Positions 53,648 through 62,699 of a stretch of DNA of 64,000 bases are shown here, piece after piece (positions within the stretch are counted from its first letter, which is position 1; every line of letters starts with the position of its first letter). The position numbers and the translations under genes were made by a program. A model generated the notes under the pieces. The model saw only the letters and a program-made list of their open reading frames with translations, made no database searches and was not told where the DNA came from. Source of the DNA: Alloprevotella sp. Lung230 (GTDB lineage: Bacteria > Bacteroidota > Bacteroidia > Bacteroidales > Bacteroidaceae); NCBI RefSeq assembly GCF_014385435.1, contig NZ_JACSUD010000006.1, forward strand, positions 1 through 64,000, read 5' to 3'.

Positions 53648-54526
53648 TTAAGCCAATTCCAATCGTTGTGCCAAAGCAATGGCAGTGGGGGCGTCAAACT
53701 TCCGAGCAAAAAGATGCGGTATCGCCATTAGTTCGTCGATATCGGCAGTCTGCCATACGTAAGGACGACCACGTGTCCAGTCAATGCGTCGCACCGTGCC
53801 TCGTTCAGGATCGTTTCGGTCGTAGATATTTTTGGCGAAGGGTGAGGCGGCAATGAGCGTCTGCTTGTAGATTTCGTCGGGAGCCAGCATGTGACGAAAC
53901 GTATGCTGAATCCACGTCTGTTGCTCCAGCAACCATGTTACGCAATCGTGGGTGAGGCTGCACCAATTAAATCCTTTGTAGAACTGCTGCTGTCGGTGGC
54001 GACGATAATTGATGATCTTTTGCGCAGCCAGCGATACGTTGCGCAAGGGTACGGTGAAACGATGACGCCATTTATGAGGAGCGCGTTTGAGATATTGCGT
54101 GAAGAGGTAGTAGCGATGAGTGCGGCGTTCGAGATCGCGTTGGTGAACTTCATCGTTCCAGAAACCAAGAAATTCTGTAGTGGGATGAGCATCAAAAAAT
54201 GCGTAAATTTCAGCCATGGGCTTGATGGGTAAATCCACGCCCGAAATCAGATGATAGTGGGCAAAGGGTCCGACTTGAAGTGCTTGTGCAAAGAGGCGCA
54301 ATTCGACTTCAATCTGTGAATAATCCCCCCAACTTACCCTCTGAGCCGGAGTGAGCAAGTGCAACTTGGCACGCGACAAAGGAGAGGGGGAAAGTACCGA
54401 TGGAAGGACTGAATTGCGTGGGTCGAGGTGGAGGAAGATTTCGTTGCGCTCATGGTCGAGCAATCGCAGGAGGGTGTGGAGCACCAGCGGTTCTTCGTGA
54501 GCGTAGATGAGAAAAGCGTGTTTCAT
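53648..54526 (-). CDS. Glycosyltransferase family 14-like (core-2/I-branching type)
   Basis: 292 residues from MKHAFLIYAHEEPLVL. GT14 traits: the N-terminal HAFLIYAHE, FLHLDPRNS, VSWGDYSQIEVELRLF, YHLISGVDLPIKPMAEIYAF and FYKGFNWCSLTHDCVTWLL, followed by LAPDEIYKQTLI. Members add beta-1,6-GlcNAc or similar sugars and act in the cytosol on lipid-linked glycans in bacteria. It is the last gene of the eight-gene operon, 16 bases after the previous gene. The acceptor is unknown. Confidence 0.88.
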   Translation of the reverse strand: MKHAFLIYAHEEPLVLHTLLRLLDHERNEIFLHLDPRNSVLPSVLSPSPLSRAKLHLLTPAQRVSWGDYSQIEVELRLFAQALQVGPFAHYHLISGVDLPIKPMAEIYAFFDAHPTTEFLGFWNDEVHQRDLERRTHRYYLFTQYLKRAPHKWRHRFTVPLRNVSLAAQKIINYRRHRQQQFYKGFNWCSLTHDCVTWLLEQQTWIQHTFRHMLAPDEIYKQTLIAASPFAKNIYDRNDPERGTVRRIDWTRGRPYVWQTADIDELMAIPHLFARKFDAPTAIALAQRLELA

Positions 54527-54542
54527 GAGTTGGACGAGAGGA

Positions 54543-55439
54543 TTAGGTTTCGGGATGGGCAGCAAACCAATCAGACATGGTGGTATCGGTGCGCAAAGCC
54601 CTCAACGTACGAAGCTGTTCCACAAGGTGGGTTCCGACCACGCGGTCGTACTCCTCATGGAGCCGACCTTGGCGATACAACTCGAGGAAATAGCGCCAAT
54701 GTTTGCCACCATGGCGAGAGGGATTGCGTTCGAGCTGTTCCCCACCATTCACCACCTTGCATACAAAAGCTTCGCGGCCGAGATGGTTGTAGTGGTAGAT
54801 GCGGATGTCGCTGTCTTTGCACCATCGGGGCAGCATCTTCACCTTATGGTTGCCCATCGAAATCTGCAAATACCCTTTGGCGCGATGCATCACTTTGTGC
54901 GGATGTGGGCCAAAGATACCATAGGGAGATAGGCCCAAAGCTTCGCGTTCGGCTGTTTCGTGGGCAGTCTCGCGCCATTCGGTGAAAGGAATGTCTTCCT
55001 CTGGTCGCATACCAATGACTTCACAGCGCAGCACATTGGCACGGAGGTGGGCAAGTTGAGTGTGGAAGTCGCCCGTTGGCGGATACCAAAATTCATCGCC
55101 GTCGGCATTGATAATCCAATCGGCTGCAAACTCGCGACGAGCCACATCAATCATACGGTCCACCCATTGTTTCTGTCGATAGTCGGTGCCTGTTTCGTGA
55201 ATGACGGCAAGCACCCAGCCCATTTGTCGATAGCGTTCAATGATGGCGGGTGTAGCATCGGTGGAGTTGTTGTCGGTGATAATAAACCCATCCACTCCCA
55301 TGGCGTGATGAAAGCGAAGGTTGTGTTCGAGCAATGTTTCTTCGTCCTTGACCAAGAGTGTCATAATGACGCGTGGATGAGGTATGGGGCGAAAAGCAGA
55401 AGGGAGATGCAGAAGGGCATTGAAGAGATTGCAAAGCAT
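54543..55439 (-). CDS. Glycosyltransferase family 2-like (Glyco_tranf_2_4 type)
   Basis: 298 residues from MLCNLFNALLHLP, which starts 4 bases after the upstream stop. The GT-A core is marked by VIMTLLVKDEETLLEHNLRF, FIITDNNSTDATP and INADGDEFWYP (the DxD motif). HYNHLGREAFVCKVVNGGEQ lies near the C-terminus. It is similar to glycosyltransferases of LPS or capsule clusters. Starts further upstream (55481, 55505) would overlap the previous gene. Confidence 0.88.
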   Translation of the reverse strand: MLCNLFNALLHLPSAFRPIPHPRVIMTLLVKDEETLLEHNLRFHHAMGVDGFIITDNNSTDATPAIIERYRQMGWVLAVIHETGTDYRQKQWVDRMIDVARREFAADWIINADGDEFWYPPTGDFHTQLAHLRANVLRCEVIGMRPEEDIPFTEWRETAHETAEREALGLSPYGIFGPHPHKVMHRAKGYLQISMGNHKVKMLPRWCKDSDIRIYHYNHLGREAFVCKVVNGGEQLERNPSRHGGKHWRYFLELYRQGRLHEEYDRVVGTHLVEQLRTLRALRTDTTMSDWFAAHPET

Positions 55440-55443
55440 ACAC

Positions 55444-56283
55444 TTACGATTGAGAAAGACGACGACGAGCCAAACGTTCATAGTTGGCTTGGCGCACTCG
55501 TTCACGCAAGCCGTTGGGAATGATATTGTTGAGTAGGGATTTCAGAAAGTCGCTCACCTTCATGCCCAGGTGCTGCAGTTGCCAACGTATGGTTTGATCG
55601 GCTCCGTTGATGCGCGCACACTCGCAGCGTACGGCATTCTTCTGTCGGCTCGAGATGCCGCTTTCGCTCTCAAAGATGGCGATGGGCAGGTCGAGATAGA
55701 CAAAGTGTGCTCCCTCATGATAAAGCTGATAGAAAAAAGCATAGTCGGCAGCAACTCGGTAGTGCAGATCGAAAGGGTGAGAAAGGGCTTGAAGACGGCG
55801 TACGAAGCAAGCCTGGTGGCAAAAGGCCATTCTCTGTTGTAGATAATCAATGGGTTTAGGTTTCATTTCCACTCTACCAAAACTTTTGTGCAGCCATACA
55901 TTGCCATAGATGACCGCACAATCATCGGAAAATGCATTTTCGGCAAAAGCCTGATGCACGATGTCGGGTTGTGAGAAACAATCGCCGGCATTCATAAAAC
56001 AAATCCATTCTCCCTTGGCCAAACCCACTCCTTTATTCATCGCATCGTAAATGCCTTGATCCGGCTCAGAAAGTGCGTGTAGTGCAAACCCACGTTGAGC
56101 ACATTGCTCTCGAATCCGCTCGATTTGTTGAGCAGTATCATCGGTCGAGGCTCCATCAATGATGATATATTCTATTGGTGCATAATTCTGCGCCAACACA
56201 GAAGCCGCAGTATTACAGAGGTCTACCGCTGCATTACGACATACGGTGATGACAGAAATGAGAGGAGAGGAAGAGACACACAT
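55444..56283 (-). CDS. Glycosyltransferase family 2
   Basis: 279 residues. The family 2 core is typical: SVITVCRNAAVDLCNTAASV, IIIDGASTDDT, SEPDQGIYDAMNKGVGLAKG, and the DxD-equivalent CFMNAGDCFS. YRVAADYAFFYQLY is the later conserved block. It resembles the WcaA-like enzymes of exopolysaccharide and LPS clusters. It is separated by 82 bases from the preceding GT-kinase gene and directly coupled to the next. Donor and acceptor unknown. Confidence 0.92.
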   Translation of the reverse strand: MCVSSSPLISVITVCRNAAVDLCNTAASVLAQNYAPIEYIIIDGASTDDTAQQIERIREQCAQRGFALHALSEPDQGIYDAMNKGVGLAKGEWICFMNAGDCFSQPDIVHQAFAENAFSDDCAVIYGNVWLHKSFGRVEMKPKPIDYLQQRMAFCHQACFVRRLQALSHPFDLHYRVAADYAFFYQLYHEGAHFVYLDLPIAIFESESGISSRQKNAVRCECARINGADQTIRWQLQHLGMKVSDFLKSLLNNIIPNGLRERVRQANYERLARRRLSQS

Positions 56284-56365: not shown

Positions 56366-57844
56366 TTAAGGGGTAACAGCCGTTTCGTTGTCGGGCAACT
56401 GGTCTAAATAATCATTGAGCACTTGCAGGCAAACATCAACATCGGCATTTCGCACCGCAGCATAGCCCTCCACCAAGGGAAGCCGCCAGCTTTTGGGAGG
56501 ACGCAAAGCCGCAAGATTGAGTACTCCTCGTTCAGGAGAAAGCGTTCCTATGCGTAAACGATTGAGATCAATGAGTTCTACGGCGACACCTCCCGAAGTG
56601 ATGTCCCACAGCACATTTCCTCCCGAAAAATCTTTGTGCCACCATCCGTGGTCGTTCATTCGTGCTGCGGTCTCACCCACAGCATGAAGCACCTCCAGAA
56701 GTTGCGGTGTATCATCATTGAGATCACGGAAATTATAGCGCAGCATCGACTGCCGGCAAACGTAATAGCAGTGCCCGATGAAGAGTGTACTTCCTGTATC
56801 ACAAAAGCCAATAGGCTCAGGACTCCCTACACCTGCGGCACAAAACCACTCGGCATTGCGAAAGGAGCGAGCGGCTTTCGTCGCACGGAACCATCGATAG
56901 ACAAAGCGATTGAAACGATGGGGAAGGCAGAACTCTTTGACGACAAAGGCTTCGCCTTCGACCACGATGCGGCGGATGGCATTGCGGTTTTTGAAAATCT
57001 GCTCGCCGAGTTGCTCAAAGTTAAACGGCAGTTGGTCGACAAAGGAAAAAAGTTGTGGATAGTCTTCGGCAACTTTTGTTTTGCGGTAGCGGAAAGGGCG
57101 GGTAAAGAAGTTGATGCAGCGCGACCACGAGCGCATACGCCGCAACGGGCCACCCAGTTCGCGTTCGAAAAAGGCCGCGTGGCGGCGGTTGAGCATCTGA
57201 ATGACATGAGCATTGCGCTTACGATCGCGAAAACGCTTGGAGCCGCTCCGCACCCGATACCAATAGCCCACTTCGGGAAGTCGCACCACCTCGCCGCCGT
57301 CTTTGAGCATTGCTATCCAAAAATCCCAATCCTCGCGGGCTACCATCTCTTCACAGTAGCCGCCCACGCGGTCGAAGTCCGTACGGCGGTAGAGGGCACA
57401 GGCGGCGATGTGGTTGCGGCGCGCCAAGAGGTGGCGGTCGAAAGTAGGAAGTTGCCAAATGCCCTTGCGGGCACCGATAAACTCAATGGTAGGGCACACC
57501 AACTTCACTTCGGGCTGCGCTTCGAGTACAGCCACGGCATCGCTCAAGAAGTGAGGTGCCAGCAAGTCGTCGGCGTCGTGGGGGAAGATGTACTTTCCCT
57601 TCGATTCCTTCACCGCCCGATTGCGCGCTCGGCAAGGGCCGGCATTCTCTTGACGGAAGAGGTGTACGCGCTGGTCGTTGTCCACAAAGGATTGTGCGAT
57701 GTCTACCGACTTGTCCGTCGATCCATCGTCCACCAATATCACCTCAAAGTGGGGATAGGTGGAGGCCAACACGGATTGGAGCGTTTCGGCAAGAAACGAC
57801 TCCATATTATATATAGGGATGATAACGGATACGAGGGGGGGCAT
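56366..57844 (-). CDS. Bifunctional glycosyltransferase 2 / LPS-kinase-like fusion
   Basis: 492 residues with two domains. Residues 1-230 are a GT2 domain (VSVIIPIYNMESFLAETLQS, VDDGSTDKS at 39-46, DAD at 90-92 in PHDADDLL, and ED at 171-172). Residues 265-485 follow the WaaP/KdkA/InaA type of sugar kinase fold: Lys303 in AFVVKEF, the catalytic loop H403-K-D405-F-S-G-G-N410, and the metal-binding D426 in LIDLNRL. The protein could thus add a sugar and phosphorylate the product or the inner core of LPS. The two halves are joined by an Arg-rich linker. It lies in the glycan operon between GT genes. The reaction is inference; the two folds are seen. Confidence 0.85.
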   Translation of the reverse strand: MPPLVSVIIPIYNMESFLAETLQSVLASTYPHFEVILVDDGSTDKSVDIAQSFVDNDQRVHLFRQENAGPCRARNRAVKESKGKYIFPHDADDLLAPHFLSDAVAVLEAQPEVKLVCPTIEFIGARKGIWQLPTFDRHLLARRNHIAACALYRRTDFDRVGGYCEEMVAREDWDFWIAMLKDGGEVVRLPEVGYWYRVRSGSKRFRDRKRNAHVIQMLNRRHAAFFERELGGPLRRMRSWSRCINFFTRPFRYRKTKVAEDYPQLFSFVDQLPFNFEQLGEQIFKNRNAIRRIVVEGEAFVVKEFCLPHRFNRFVYRWFRATKAARSFRNAEWFCAAGVGSPEPIGFCDTGSTLFIGHCYYVCRQSMLRYNFRDLNDDTPQLLEVLHAVGETAARMNDHGWWHKDFSGGNVLWDITSGGVAVELIDLNRLRIGTLSPERGVLNLAALRPPKSWRLPLVEGYAAVRNADVDVCLQVLNDYLDQLPDNETAVTP

Positions 57845-57894
57845 AATTACGAATCTACGAACCTACCAATTTACTAATCTACCAGTCTACTCCC

Positions 57895-58611
57895 TCAGAT
57901 TTTATCAAACCCTTTCGTCCACTTTCTCCAATAGTATTTCAGTGGATTGGTGTATTTGAGTTGCTTCCACGGTCTACTGCCGTGAGGGCGATGAAGTACG
58001 GTCTGTTGGCACAACAAATAGTTGTGCAGGCCGGCCGCCAACGAGGCGTGCGAAATGGTGACGTCAAACCAGTTTTTGCCCGCATCTAAGTTGTTGAAGT
58101 CAAAGGCGCGGAGCAGTTGGGGAGTGAGCAGAGAGCAGCAGAACGAGCAGTGCTTTTTGATGTCCACCTCACGGCCTTCCCAACCTCGGGCGTAGAGGTA
58201 AGGGTAATTGATGGCCTCTTGCTCATCTACGGTCACGGCTGCCACGATACCGCTGTCGGCATGACGCTGTGCAGCATCATAGAGGGATTGTAGGGTGTGC
58301 GGTTTTACCGTCACGTCGCTTTCCACGATGAGCAAACCCGCATCGGCTTCGAGTGCCAAGCGCTGACAGCGTTGCAGTACGAGCAGATAGTTGGGAGAAG
58401 GGTGGTCGGTGAGTGTCGCCAAATCGATGACTTCAACGCCCAATCGTGCGGCTTCGCGGTGGAGGCGCTCCGTGTTTTCGGGCGTGGAGAAATCGTTGTA
58501 GAGGGTGTAGGTGTAAGGCACGTCCAGTTGCGATGCCACCACGGCTTCCATCGTTTCGATGGTGCTGTCGATGCTGTCTTTGACGGGCGTGATGATGTGG
58601 AGGGAGTCCAT
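57895..58611 (-). CDS. Glycosyltransferase-like protein (GT2-type fold)
   Basis: 238 residues from MDSLHIITPVKDSIDS. GT-A pattern: HIITPVKDSIDSTIETMEA, YTLYNDFSTPENTERL, and LIVESDVTVKP, a DxD-like ESDV. The C-terminal KQLKYTNPLKYYWRKWTKGF is strongly basic and may bind membrane. It starts 10 bases after the metallophosphoesterase gene in the same operon. Its specificity is unknown and the family assignment is less firm than for its neighbours. Confidence 0.8.
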   Translation of the reverse strand: MDSLHIITPVKDSIDSTIETMEAVVASQLDVPYTYTLYNDFSTPENTERLHREAARLGVEVIDLATLTDHPSPNYLLVLQRCQRLALEADAGLLIVESDVTVKPHTLQSLYDAAQRHADSGIVAAVTVDEQEAINYPYLYARGWEGREVDIKKHCSFCCSLLTPQLLRAFDFNNLDAGKNWFDVTISHASLAAGLHNYLLCQQTVLHRPHGSRPWKQLKYTNPLKYYWRKWTKGFDKI

Positions 58612-58621
58612 GAGGTCGATA

Positions 58622-59992
58622 TTATTGAAGGCCCTTTTTTCGTTTGTAGTCGGCAATGCGCGCTGCAAACTGAGCATCTTTTTTATTGCCGGGGCGAGGC
58701 GTAAATTCCAATCGTTCGGGAATGTGGCGAGCGCGGTCGATGAGAGTGGGATGGTCGTGTTCGCCTTTCACCAAATCCACCGCATCGTAAAGTTGCTGGG
58801 TCTGGGCGTCGTAAGTGCGCATGGAGAGTGTGTCGCCATGGATGGTGATTTGCTGATAGTATTGCGTGCCGGTACCGAAGCGGTCGAAGCGGTCGCTGAA
58901 CTCAATGCGGTAGTGCTTGGGCGAACAGTGGCTCACGGTGAAGATGGGCGGACGCGCTTCGCCTTTGGGGCCGTGTTGCGTCATGCGAGCATAAGCGTGT
59001 TCGTGTCCTTGCAGCACCAAGTCGGCATTGTCGTTGAGGACATCGCCAAAGGCCAAACGCTGCATGAGGTTGTTGCTGCCCGACTTGGCGGAATAGATGG
59101 GATGATGGAGCACCACGATGTTCCAACGAGCCGGCTTCTCCTTCATCTTTTGTTCCAACCAGTTGCGTTGGGTGTAGAGGAACGGTAGTTCGCGGTTGGA
59201 GTCGAGCAGATAGAGTTGTGCGTCGTGGTAAGGGAGGTTGTACACCTGATTTTCGCCCACCATCGAGCGCAGGAAATAGGGGAAGGTGAGGGAAAAACGG
59301 CGTTCGAGTTTGCGAATCGGATATTTGAGATACTCGTGGTTGCCGGTACACACCAAGGTGGGGAGGGTTTGAGCAATAGAGTCAATACTGTGGAAGGTTT
59401 CTGCCCAAAACGCATCGGTGGGGCGCTCACAGAGGTCGCCGCCAAAAACAACAAATTCCGTTTCGGGATGTGCCTTCCAAGCCTCACGCACCAAGCGGTT
59501 GGAGATGCCGCCAATGCTGTCCTGCACATCACCGAAATAGAGGAACGAAAAGCGACCCGGCTTGTCGACATCCCCGGAGGGCATGGAGAAATGATACCAA
59601 GGCGAGGACTGTTCGTTCGTGACGGCACGATAGCGGTATTGGTGTCCCGGTTGCAGTTTTTCTATCGCCACGTGATAGAAAGCCGTTTTCCCACTGCGCG
59701 AGGCAAAAACTTCGCCTTCGGCCGGCAGACAAACGGCCTCGTCATGACCGGAAGCATCCATCAGTTCAAGATAGGAGGTGTGCAGCACACTGTCGGCCTG
59801 CCAACTCACCATGCGCGACAGCGGGCCGTCGTTGCCAAAGGTGAGGAGGACGCGATGCGGTGTGGGGGCTGTGGTATAGGGGGCTTCGGGCGGATTGCCG
59901 AACCAAACACCCCAGCGCACGTAGCACAGAATGCCCAATCCCGCCACGAGCAGGGACAGAATGGAGAGAGAAATCTTGTTTTTGCGTTTCAT
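58622..59992 (-). CDS. Membrane-anchored metallophosphoesterase (purple acid phosphatase-like)
   Basis: 456 residues. An N-terminal signal anchor covers about 8-25. A fibronectin-like beta domain (about 40-140) precedes the calcineurin-like domain, as in purple acid phosphatases. All five metal motifs are present: GDVQD (154-158), GGDLCE (184-189), GNHE (217-220), LHHP (295-298) and GHEHAYAR (329-336). It faces the periplasm and removes phosphate from phosphomonoesters. It lies between an LtaS-like transferase and glycosyltransferases with 10-base gaps, so it may trim phosphate from a glycan or lipid carrier; the substrate is inference. Confidence 0.9.
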   Translation of the reverse strand: MKRKNKISLSILSLLVAGLGILCYVRWGVWFGNPPEAPYTTAPTPHRVLLTFGNDGPLSRMVSWQADSVLHTSYLELMDASGHDEAVCLPAEGEVFASRSGKTAFYHVAIEKLQPGHQYRYRAVTNEQSSPWYHFSMPSGDVDKPGRFSFLYFGDVQDSIGGISNRLVREAWKAHPETEFVVFGGDLCERPTDAFWAETFHSIDSIAQTLPTLVCTGNHEYLKYPIRKLERRFSLTFPYFLRSMVGENQVYNLPYHDAQLYLLDSNRELPFLYTQRNWLEQKMKEKPARWNIVVLHHPIYSAKSGSNNLMQRLAFGDVLNDNADLVLQGHEHAYARMTQHGPKGEARPPIFTVSHCSPKHYRIEFSDRFDRFGTGTQYYQQITIHGDTLSMRTYDAQTQQLYDAVDLVKGEHDHPTLIDRARHIPERLEFTPRPGNKKDAQFAARIADYKRKKGLQ

Positions 59993-60002
59993 GTGCTGTA
60001 AT

Positions 60003-61982
60003 CTAATGTGAAGGATGTGAGGAGCGTTTCCATACCATTTGGTCGGTGGTCATACGCTGCATGTAGCTTTGGATGATGGCTTTGAGCCGGCGCTCCATCG
60101 CGGCCTGTTCGGGGACGCGGCCCACGAGGTTGTGCTGCCCCATCCAGTCGTTGCGGAAATTGTAGATGCTCTTCGTCTTCGTACCGTCGAAGGCCAAAAC
60201 GTAATCTCCCTGGGCAAAAAGGTAAATGCCGTTGTAGTAGGCCACTTCGTAGTTGTCTTTGGCCGGAGTGTGGATGAGGTCGGTGCCGAAAGCGATGTAG
60301 GGCTTGTCGTAGCCAAGGTAGCCCAACACGGTGGGCATGATGTCGATTTGCTTGGCAATGCCTGCACGGTGCTCTTTGGGCAGTTCTCCCGAGGGATCGA
60401 AGAAAACGATGGGCACGGAGAAGACGCCGAGCGGTGTTTGGTATTCCGGATGGTCGGAAAGGCTGGTGTGGTCGGCGGTGAGCACAAACAGCGTGTTCTT
60501 ATACCAAGGTTGGCGGCGGGCAGTGGCAAAGAAGGCGCGCAAGGCGTTGTCGCTGTAGCGCACACAGCGATTGAGCGGATTTTTGCCTTCCTGCGGATAC
60601 CGCTCCTCCTGACCTTCGGGCACTTTGTAGGGGGCGTGGGAAGAGGCGGAGAACAGCGCCGTCATGAAAGGTTGGCGAAAGTCGCTCATCTTTTGGGCGT
60701 AAAATTGAAAGAAAGGCTCGTCCCAAATCGCCCAAGTACCGTCGAAATCAGCATCGCCGCGGAAACGCTTGTCGGCATTGAACTCTGTGCGGCCATAGTA
60801 CTCCCCGAAACCGGTGGCTTTGGCAAAGGCTTGAAAACCCATTGAGCCATTGGCCGCCCCATGGAAGAAGGCGGTGTGATAGCCCTTCGTACGCAGTTCG
60901 CCGGCCAATCCGCTCAGATGGTTGAGCGAAGCGGGCGTGAGGAAAAAGGGTTCGACAAACATCGGGATGGACGACAGCACCGAGGGCATGCCGTCAATGC
61001 TTTTGCGTCCGTTGCTAAACGAGTATTCAAACGTGAGGCTTTCCTGCATCAGTGAGTCGAGGAAAGGGGTATAGCCTTTGTAGCGACCTCCGTCGAGGTG
61101 GGGGTTGAGCCAACCGCTGTTTTCCTTTCCGAAACTTTCGAGGATGAACACCACAACATTTTTCGACCGAAACGCCTCGCCTGCCGTGGGGTGATGCACA
61201 GGCGAATAGAGGGTGTTCATCTCCTGCGCTGTCATATATTTCGGGTCGACAAAGGCCGTCTTATTGACGGTGCGAATGAGCGAAAAGGGCGTGTTCAAAA
61301 TCAAGGCCGCTTCCGAAGGCTGGTTCACATATTGGTTGGCGTTGCTCAACGTGATGGGGCGCACAGCCGTGGTGAAACCGCCACGCATGCCCGCCACACA
61401 AAGCGGTGCAAAGAGGCCGAGTGCGAGCGTTTGCACAGCATAGTAGCGCCAGGTCGGTCGCCGATTGTCGCTGTGGGGATGGACGTAGAGGCGCACCAGC
61501 AACGCAATCAGCGCCACGCCCAGCAGGACGAGATACCAGTGGCTCAGCACTTCCTTACCCACGATGCTTGCGATGTTGCCTTCATGGCTGAACTCGCTGA
61601 ACACCGACATCGTCGTGCGCCGACCGGTATACTTGAAATAGACGGCATCACCGAGGTTCACCACCACCGCGAGGGCATTGACGAGGAGGAAAAGTCCTTT
61701 GGCCGTTCCTTGCCATACCGCCTGCCGCTTCCAGGGGAGTGGCAGGAGCATGAGGAGGGCATAGAGCGCATTGGTGTAGAGGATGGCGGAAGTGTCGAAA
61801 AAAAGTGTGCCCGTCCAAGCCTCTACCTTGTCCAACTGCGCAAAGTGAGGAGCATAGGCGCCCCAATTTTCCCACAGGAACACCACGCGGCAGAGGGCGT
61901 AGAGAAGATACACCCACACAAGATTGACGAGAAAAGCCAAGGGGAAAGACCATGCGCCGGCGCGCACTTGAAGTTGTTGCAT
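60003..61982 (-). CDS. LtaS-like membrane sulfatase-fold phosphotransferase
   Basis: 659 residues. Five transmembrane helices lie in the first 205 residues (about 12-34, 65-82, 95-115, 148-166, 182-200). An extracytoplasmic sulfatase-fold domain follows from about 265 (NVVVFILESFGKENSG with Glu282, then SFSNGRKSIDGMPS with a Ser in the nucleophile region, LTADHTS, and GHNLV-like C-terminal blocks). Relatives move phosphoglycerol or phosphoethanolamine to glycans or lipids. The nucleophile is usually Thr; here the site looks like Ser328, so which reaction it carries out is open. It follows an HD gene and leads the phosphoesterase. Confidence 0.85.
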   Translation of the reverse strand: MQQLQVRAGAWSFPLAFLVNLVWVYLLYALCRVVFLWENWGAYAPHFAQLDKVEAWTGTLFFDTSAILYTNALYALLMLLPLPWKRQAVWQGTAKGLFLLVNALAVVVNLGDAVYFKYTGRRTTMSVFSEFSHEGNIASIVGKEVLSHWYLVLLGVALIALLVRLYVHPHSDNRRPTWRYYAVQTLALGLFAPLCVAGMRGGFTTAVRPITLSNANQYVNQPSEAALILNTPFSLIRTVNKTAFVDPKYMTAQEMNTLYSPVHHPTAGEAFRSKNVVVFILESFGKENSGWLNPHLDGGRYKGYTPFLDSLMQESLTFEYSFSNGRKSIDGMPSVLSSIPMFVEPFFLTPASLNHLSGLAGELRTKGYHTAFFHGAANGSMGFQAFAKATGFGEYYGRTEFNADKRFRGDADFDGTWAIWDEPFFQFYAQKMSDFRQPFMTALFSASSHAPYKVPEGQEERYPQEGKNPLNRCVRYSDNALRAFFATARRQPWYKNTLFVLTADHTSLSDHPEYQTPLGVFSVPIVFFDPSGELPKEHRAGIAKQIDIMPTVLGYLGYDKPYIAFGTDLIHTPAKDNYEVAYYNGIYLFAQGDYVLAFDGTKTKSIYNFRNDWMGQHNLVGRVPEQAAMERRLKAIIQSYMQRMTTDQMVWKRSSHPSH

Positions 61983-62048: not shown

Positions 62049-62699
62049 TTAAGGCTCCAATCCGGGTGCAGTGTGCTCAATGATACTTGCAGCAAGTCCG
62101 TCGGCACACTGGATAAGGCCGCAAAGGGGATGATTTTTGCGCGCCTCGTTGATGTTCGACTTCGCTTCGGGACTTTGGAACGCCAAGTCCCAAGCGCCCA
62201 TGTGCCAACGGATAGCGAGCATCTCCTCATCACGGAGTTGCAAACCGGAGAGCAGGAGCATGATGACGGATTTTTCGCCGTGTCCCATCGGGAAACCGCT
62301 GAAATCGACGTCGTAAGAATCGTATTCTTCCCACGCCGTGTTGGCAGCATTGCGGCGGCGCTTCACCACAGGTTTGTAGATTTCGGCCTTGTTCACATCG
62401 TGGAGTAAGGCACAGAGGATGACACTGTCTTTGCGCAGTACGCTCTTCAAGTCCGGCCGCCGGCGGTGCATCATTTCCATCAATTCGAGGGCGGTGTGGC
62501 ACACGTTGAGCGAATGTTGCACCAGTCCACCGGGCGTGCAGAGGTGAAAGCGCGTAGAGGCCGGCGCTTCGAAAAACCCCAAGTTTTCGAGGTCTTCAAT
62601 GACATATTCCACGCCCTCGCGTTCGGTGGAGCGAAGCAGTTGGCAAAACTCAGCCTTATGATCGGCGCAGAGATCCGCGGTCAGATTTCCTAAATTCAT
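62049..62699 (-). CDS. HD-domain phosphohydrolase
   Basis: 216 residues. The HD motif is LLHDVNK (99-105), with a preceding His in GLVQHSLNV (about 61) and later MGHGEKS and IRWHMGAWD blocks that complete the metal site. Such proteins hydrolyse nucleotides or phospho-compounds in the cytosol. It is the first gene of the long minus-strand operon, 66 bases before the LtaS-like gene. A -7 element TAACTTTG (complement of 62773-62780) lies 74 bases upstream. Its link to glycan synthesis may be only positional. Confidence 0.85.
   Translation of the reverse strand: MNLGNLTADLCADHKAEFCQLLRSTEREGVEYVIEDLENLGFFEAPASTRFHLCTPGGLVQHSLNVCHTALELMEMMHRRRPDLKSVLRKDSVILCALLHDVNKAEIYKPVVKRRRNAANTAWEEYDSYDVDFSGFPMGHGEKSVIMLLLSGLQLRDEEMLAIRWHMGAWDLAFQSPEAKSNINEARKNHPLCGLIQCADGLAASIIEHTAPGLEP

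Follow-up and report, generated by a model that had tools for sequence, protein, structure and literature searches.

A probable two-domain enzyme of LOS/LPS-core assembly, glycosyltransferase and kinase in one chain, from Alloprevotella sp. Lung230

In Alloprevotella sp. Lung230, one gene encodes a GT2 glycosyltransferase joined to a kinase of the Kdo/WaaP family. It lies at 56366..57844 on the minus strand of the stretch of DNA analysed here (the window, 64,000 nucleotides), and its product is probably a bifunctional, two-domain enzyme of the LOS/LPS core. A probability of about 0.55 is given to the explanation as a whole, which includes a single fusion followed by losses. Both sets of catalytic residues are intact, and the locus is equivalent to that of stand-alone LOS-core kinases. 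Both families are known, and it is their pairing that seems to be undescribed: a search of the open-licence PMC literature by title and start of abstract, with subscription papers outside its scope, found no description of a GT2-Kdo/WaaP kinase fusion, in agreement with a preliminary description of this DNA that took the pairing to be undescribed in Bacteroidales. The excerpt consulted of a review that draws on UniProt to survey bifunctional protein kinases does not contain the string 'glycosyl' (PMC9138534), and that of PMC10331486 holds nothing on a GT2-kinase fusion family.

The gene and its two halves

The reading frame extends from an ATG at 57844 to a stop codon ending at 56366 and encodes 492 amino acids. 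Reading of 56366-57844 on the plus strand was rejected, frame 1 being stopped after 13 codons. A 413-residue open frame on the plus strand (56636-57877) overlaps the fusion gene in the opposite direction and is probably a shadow frame.

The N-terminal half (residues 1-241, the domain itself covering about 3-241; 57122..57844, minus strand) was assigned to the GT2 family from its Pfam match, an AF2 model and structure comparison. In hmmscan searches of the fusion protein against Pfam, PF00535 (Glycos_transf_2) matches residues 6-135 with 122.6 bits, against a cut-off of 23.3. The DxD-like motif D90-A-D92 (57569..57577, minus strand) and the triplet E171-D172-W173, which we take to be the metal/nucleotide and the catalytic residues of GT2 enzymes respectively, are kept in the alignment of all 19 fused copies. 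The nearest named relatives of this half are from Bacteroidota. In the full-length AF2 model each block within residues 1-200 has a pLDDT of more than 85, with dips and uneven values thereafter. The GT half has a GT-A fold by comparison with 2z86, to which 239 residues align with Z 27.4 and an rmsd of 2.5 A. This structure is the GT domain of the chondroitin polymerase K4CP, which has the GT-A fold in common with the GT half, differs in being without a kinase, and presumably contains two GT domains.

The C-terminal half (residues 258-475; 56420..57073, minus strand) follows a junction of residues 242-257 (57074..57121, minus strand). PF06293 (Kdo/WaaP) matches residues 314-433 with 30.3 bits, above its cut-off of 21.3, so that a single chain carries both families, as stated in the preliminary description. 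The ATP-site lysine K303 (56936..56938, minus strand) and D426 of the D-L-N-R motif (DFG equivalent; 56567..56569, minus strand) are present in 62 of 62 kinase rows, and the histidine and aspartate of the catalytic loop H403-K404-D405 (56630..56638, minus strand) in 19 of 19 fused copies. K303, H403-K-D405, N410 and D426 are intact, as the earlier reading has it, and K303, H403, D405, N410, D426 and R429 are invariant in the 19 fused copies. A catalytically dead or merely regulatory kinase half could be imagined from the kinase tree, in which the kinase domains of the Lung230 gene and its two nearest relatives are set apart by a long branch (1.06, with a further 1.15 leading to the Lung230 gene); against such complete conservation of the catalytic residues this is scarcely credible.

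Structure prediction, proposed at the outset for both folds, bore out the GT half and left the kinase half at low confidence: pLDDT is below 50 over residues 240-473 in the full-length model, for which the alignment contained seven GT-only relatives, and the kinase half modelled alone reaches a mean of 33.8. The low confidence is explained by the alignment, which supplied almost no relatives of this half. A profile built from 22 kinase relatives has WaaP of P. aeruginosa (6dfl) as its best solved chain, with an E-value of 7.4e-07, and the predicted kinase-like fold rests on profile matches of this kind.

Two other identities were considered for the kinase and rejected. The aminoglycoside-phosphotransferase family (APH, PF01636) scores 23.5 bits against a cut-off of 23.2, only 0.3 over it, and among solved structures the relatives' profile matches WaaP best. 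The KdkA equivalog NF002475 has a cut-off of 142 bits and scores 22.3; what KdkA and the kinase half have in common is, we presume, the broad family PF06293.

Across the junction, S241 and F276 lie 35 residues apart in 14 of the 19 fused copies and 35-37 apart in 17 of them; the exceptions are one copy with 41 and the poorly aligning L085 with 16. As full-length fused copies recur in 19 separate, unrelated assemblies, a chance or assembly join can be excluded.

Occurrence of the fused gene

The search profile was built from an alignment of six fused proteins and applied to samples of the genus (58 genomes), order (393), family (399) and phylum (395). In the last three, strict thresholds were applied and no more than a few candidates were scored per genome, so that their counts are lower bounds. 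The fusion is present at full length in 13 of the 58 genus genomes, in at least five of the 393 genomes of the even order sample (G000, G162, G265, G165 and G302; in G302 a single frame gives two adjacent matches) and in at least two of the 395 phylum genomes (G000 and G162); the family sample added at least two new ones (G908 and G1078) among its 399 genomes. The order and family samples together added six fusion genomes to the 13 of the genus sample, three other families among them, and the compared set consists of 19 fused copies from four families. A search for the domain architecture, as suggested in the preliminary description, thus shows that the pairing recurs and is not unique to the Lung230 genome. 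Among 296 phylum genomes the Lung230 fusion was the sole kinase found within a frame of more than 325 amino acids, a count that is a lower bound. Virus contigs searched for the kinase and for the fusion gave no relatives of either.

The kinases related to the fusion fall into two groups, K1 and K2, the latter comprising the fused kinases and a set of stand-alone ones. Within the genus, 13 genomes carry the fusion and 15 a stand-alone K2, with zero overlap (hypergeometric 0.012, a value that ignores relatedness). Neither form was found in 30 of the 58 genomes at the threshold used, many of these genomes being incomplete, and G004 has a diverged kinase that falls below the threshold.

The Lung230 genome itself contains two PF06293 matches at E <=0.001, namely the fusion and a stand-alone K1 kinase on contig C10, which is 28% identical to the fusion over residues 261-476. 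This K1 gene (L114 910-1629) adjoins a formate-tetrahydrofolate ligase and lies outside any GT cluster. In G067 (L107 7174-10134) a K1 kinase, the partner gene GT2x described below and the fusion stand in one row, which links K1 to the fusion locus. A single phosphorylated Kdo is mentioned for B. vulgatus (excerpt of PMC8003790), and K1 may be the kinase for such a single Kdo phosphate.

Gene neighbourhood and the separate halves

All the neighbours described here lie on the minus strand. Directly upstream of the fusion is GT2x (57895..58677), whose PF00535 score of 19.6 bits is below the cut-off of 23.3; it belongs to a conserved GT2-like family that, although it falls under the Pfam threshold, regularly accompanies fused as well as stand-alone kinases. 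Directly downstream of the fusion is a WcaE-like GT2, assigned by family search (55444..56283), followed by a GT2_4-type glycosyltransferase (54543..55505, PF13704) and a GT14 Core-2/I-branching-like glycosyltransferase (53648..54565, PF02485), the last two of which recur near fused and stand-alone kinases. Upstream of GT2x are genes for a purple-acid-phosphatase-like metallophosphoesterase (58622..59992; PF00149, PF16656) and an LtaS/sulfatase-type membrane transferase (60003..61982, PF00884). These two are found together at five of the 19 fusion loci (Lung230, G005, G033, G062 and G064) and possibly represent a further step of phosphate decoration. An HD-domain protein (62049-62699, PF01966) has counterparts of 78-83% identity near the GT2x/kinase locus of G025, G075 and G077 and near that of G022, where the kinase stands alone.

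GT2x is upstream on the same strand at 17 of 19 fusions (it is missing at those of G001 and G065) and at 17 of 24 stand-alone K2 loci, and at none of the seven K1 loci examined. One further stand-alone K2 locus has it downstream, and the upstream sequence covered for G006 is limited to 645 bases. Between GT2x and the kinase match there are 35-121 bases at 14 of these 17 stand-alone K2 loci, as against 762-911 bases at 16 of the 17 fusion loci, and it is the GT half that fills the wider gap. Two of the exceptional loci, those of G069 and G016, have a Glf-like gene between GT2x and the kinase, recognised by eye and matched by search.

The GT half also occurs without the kinase. It stands alone beside GT2x in three loci, from Porphyromonadaceae UBA2751, Paludibacter and Parapedobacter, and the kinase profile found no match in these three genomes; in a fourth genome with a stand-alone GT (L041) a kinase lies elsewhere and there is no GT2x match at the GT. 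Since each half can occur alone at an equivalent locus, the two are separable and obligate coupling is not needed; they probably act in the same pathway. The same facts, that both halves are found alone beside their partner GT2x and that three of the four genomes with a stand-alone GT are without such a kinase, are what would be expected if each half had an acceptor of its own, inner-core Kdo or heptose for the kinase and a position further out for the GT, with the fusion tying together only their expression and location. Such an arrangement is rather unlikely, because the junction hardly varies in length (35 residues in 14 of 19) and the fusion persists across four families, which suggests, without proving it, more than loose tethering.

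At many stand-alone K2 loci the surroundings of the kinase are of another kind. Of 24 stand-alone K2 genes, 13 have Glf (UDP-galactopyranose mutase) nearby and 18 have an extra GT2 of about 300 amino acids; neither gene is near any of the 19 fusions. Genome by genome, the extra GT2 is present in 14 of the 58 genus members, all of which have Glf (itself found in 17 of the 58), and it is in none of the 13 fusion genomes of the genus, two of which (G074 and G077) carry Glf elsewhere. Because all 14 genomes with this GT2 carry Glf and no fusion genome has it, the extra GT2 is a good candidate for a galactofuranosyltransferase. Located beside the kinase, it would take the place of the fused GT. The mutual exclusion was rejected as strong statistics, since the loci with both Glf and the extra GT2 come nearly all from one clade and amount to approximately one event. 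For that clade, the largest of the stand-alone kinases, we infer that a separate putative galactofuranosyltransferase and Glf stand beside the kinase instead of the GT half.

Origin of the fusion

The kinase tree was calculated from 62 rows, of which 20 are K1 and 42 are K2 (19 fused and 23 alone), and K1 and K2 separate with support of 100/96. The stand-alone K2 rows nest among the fused ones, with five changes of label, and a topology forcing the fused rows into one clade was rejected (p-AU 9e-06). The earliest-branching K2 rows, of families f108 and f42, are fused. Trees that have no sure root do not separate gain from loss; nesting of the stand-alone kinases among the fused ones, with a near-constant junction in the latter, suggests one old fusion and then repeated loss of the GT half.

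A tree of the GT half was made from 42 rows, the 19 fused ones and the 23 nearest stand-alone GTs, picked after a quick tree of 111 rows. Four stand-alone GTs fall among the fused GTs, one of them (L039) as sister to the fused L083 at 99/94, and a single fused clade is weakly rejected (p-AU 0.02). Both features would be expected if independent fusions had occurred repeatedly, although the absence of a single fused GT clade would also fit loss of the kinase. Repeated fusion is an unlikely history, given that the domain order is the same throughout, the partner gene is the same in most loci, the junction is of nearly the same length, and the first-branching K2 rows are fused. With one old fusion preferred, the stand-alone K2 kinases, likely of the BT3364 type discussed below, would be descendants that lost the GT half.

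Known systems and proposed function

The LOS cluster BT3362-BT3380 of B. thetaiotaomicron begins with a heptosyltransferase, a GT and a putative LPS kinase, and deletion of BT3362 and BT3364 was not achieved (excerpt of PMC5850320). The same source gives the putative LPS kinase as BT3363 in one place and as BT3364 in another. A stand-alone K2 locus from a 5.6-Mb single-contig family genome, comprising GT9, an LpxL-type acyltransferase, Glf, GT2x, K2, GT2, GT2_4, GT14 and GT4, resembles this cluster in its GT9, LpxL-type, Glf and GT genes (as far as the excerpt of PMC5850320 describes it). BT3364 is annotated as an LPS kinase, belongs to a LOS-core cluster and, like the stand-alone K2 genes, comes after a GT gene and before a row of GTs; gene order and description together point to K2 being the BT3364 type. 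The fusion kinase in turn belongs to the same clade and the same type of locus as stand-alone K2, according to the kinase tree and the adjacency of GT2x. The difference is that BT3364 is described as a separate kinase gene, with no GT domain reported in the excerpt of PMC5850320.

The heptose(I) kinase WaaP/RfaP (6dfl) is the closest solved relative by profile, and its HxD and D-L-x-R motifs align with those of the fusion; it differs in standing alone and in having DLHR where the fusion has DLNR. WaaP variants at K51, H161, D163, D188 and R191 gave no growth, and at the position of N171 of protein kinase A a difference is reported for WaaP, whereas the corresponding N410 is kept in the fusion kinase (excerpt of PMC6147952).

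A kinase and a GT on the same polypeptide have a precedent in ORF6 of Klebsiella O7, with methyltransferase, kinase, coiled-coil and GT2 modules, the kinase of which resembles AmiN weakly and differs from that of WbdD (excerpt of PMC11231755). By analogy with WbdD and the O7 protein, the kinase half could act as a chain terminator, capping a glycan extended by the GT. This is very improbable for the fusion: those systems carry a methyltransferase and a coiled coil and serve the O-antigen, not the core, while the fusion protein has no methyltransferase family match at E <=1, its short junction would not accommodate a long coiled coil, and the K2 locus examined is of the LOS-core type.

The likely role, judged from domains and locus, is that a single polypeptide adds one LOS-core sugar and phosphorylates the core. 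Both reactions would occur at the cytoplasmic face of the inner membrane. There the GT half would transfer one sugar from a nucleotide sugar to the core as it grows, while the kinase half would transfer phosphate from ATP to one of the core sugars. The most likely target would be the sugar that the GT half has added or one adjoining it, and sugar and negative charge would then be installed jointly. The preliminary description's suggestion, that a single acceptor is glycosylated and phosphorylated in one step, would be a stricter coupling than the separable halves call for.

Implications for the LOS core

The LOS of Bacteroidales is one of the most abundant glycolipids in the gut. To our knowledge, the assembly of its core is hardly assigned in these organisms, and BT3364 itself is only 'putative'. 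In this context the natural fusion suggests which glycosyltransferase belongs with the BT3364-type kinase, and it leads to a direct hypothesis on the sequence in which the core is put together. A wider and tentative proposal, more doubtful than the explanation given above, is that the LOS-core kinase of many Bacteroidales, the kind that resisted deletion in B. thetaiotaomicron, descends from a fusion coupling the addition of a core sugar to the phosphorylation of that sugar. Lineages that lost the GT half would then have put a galactofuranosyltransferase and Glf in its place, the core switching between two sugar-plus-phosphate modules while the kinase stayed. The analysis marks two such alternative modules, the fused GT2 on the one hand and the putative galactofuranosyltransferase with Glf on the other, and the LOS of organisms carrying one or the other could be compared by mass spectrometry.
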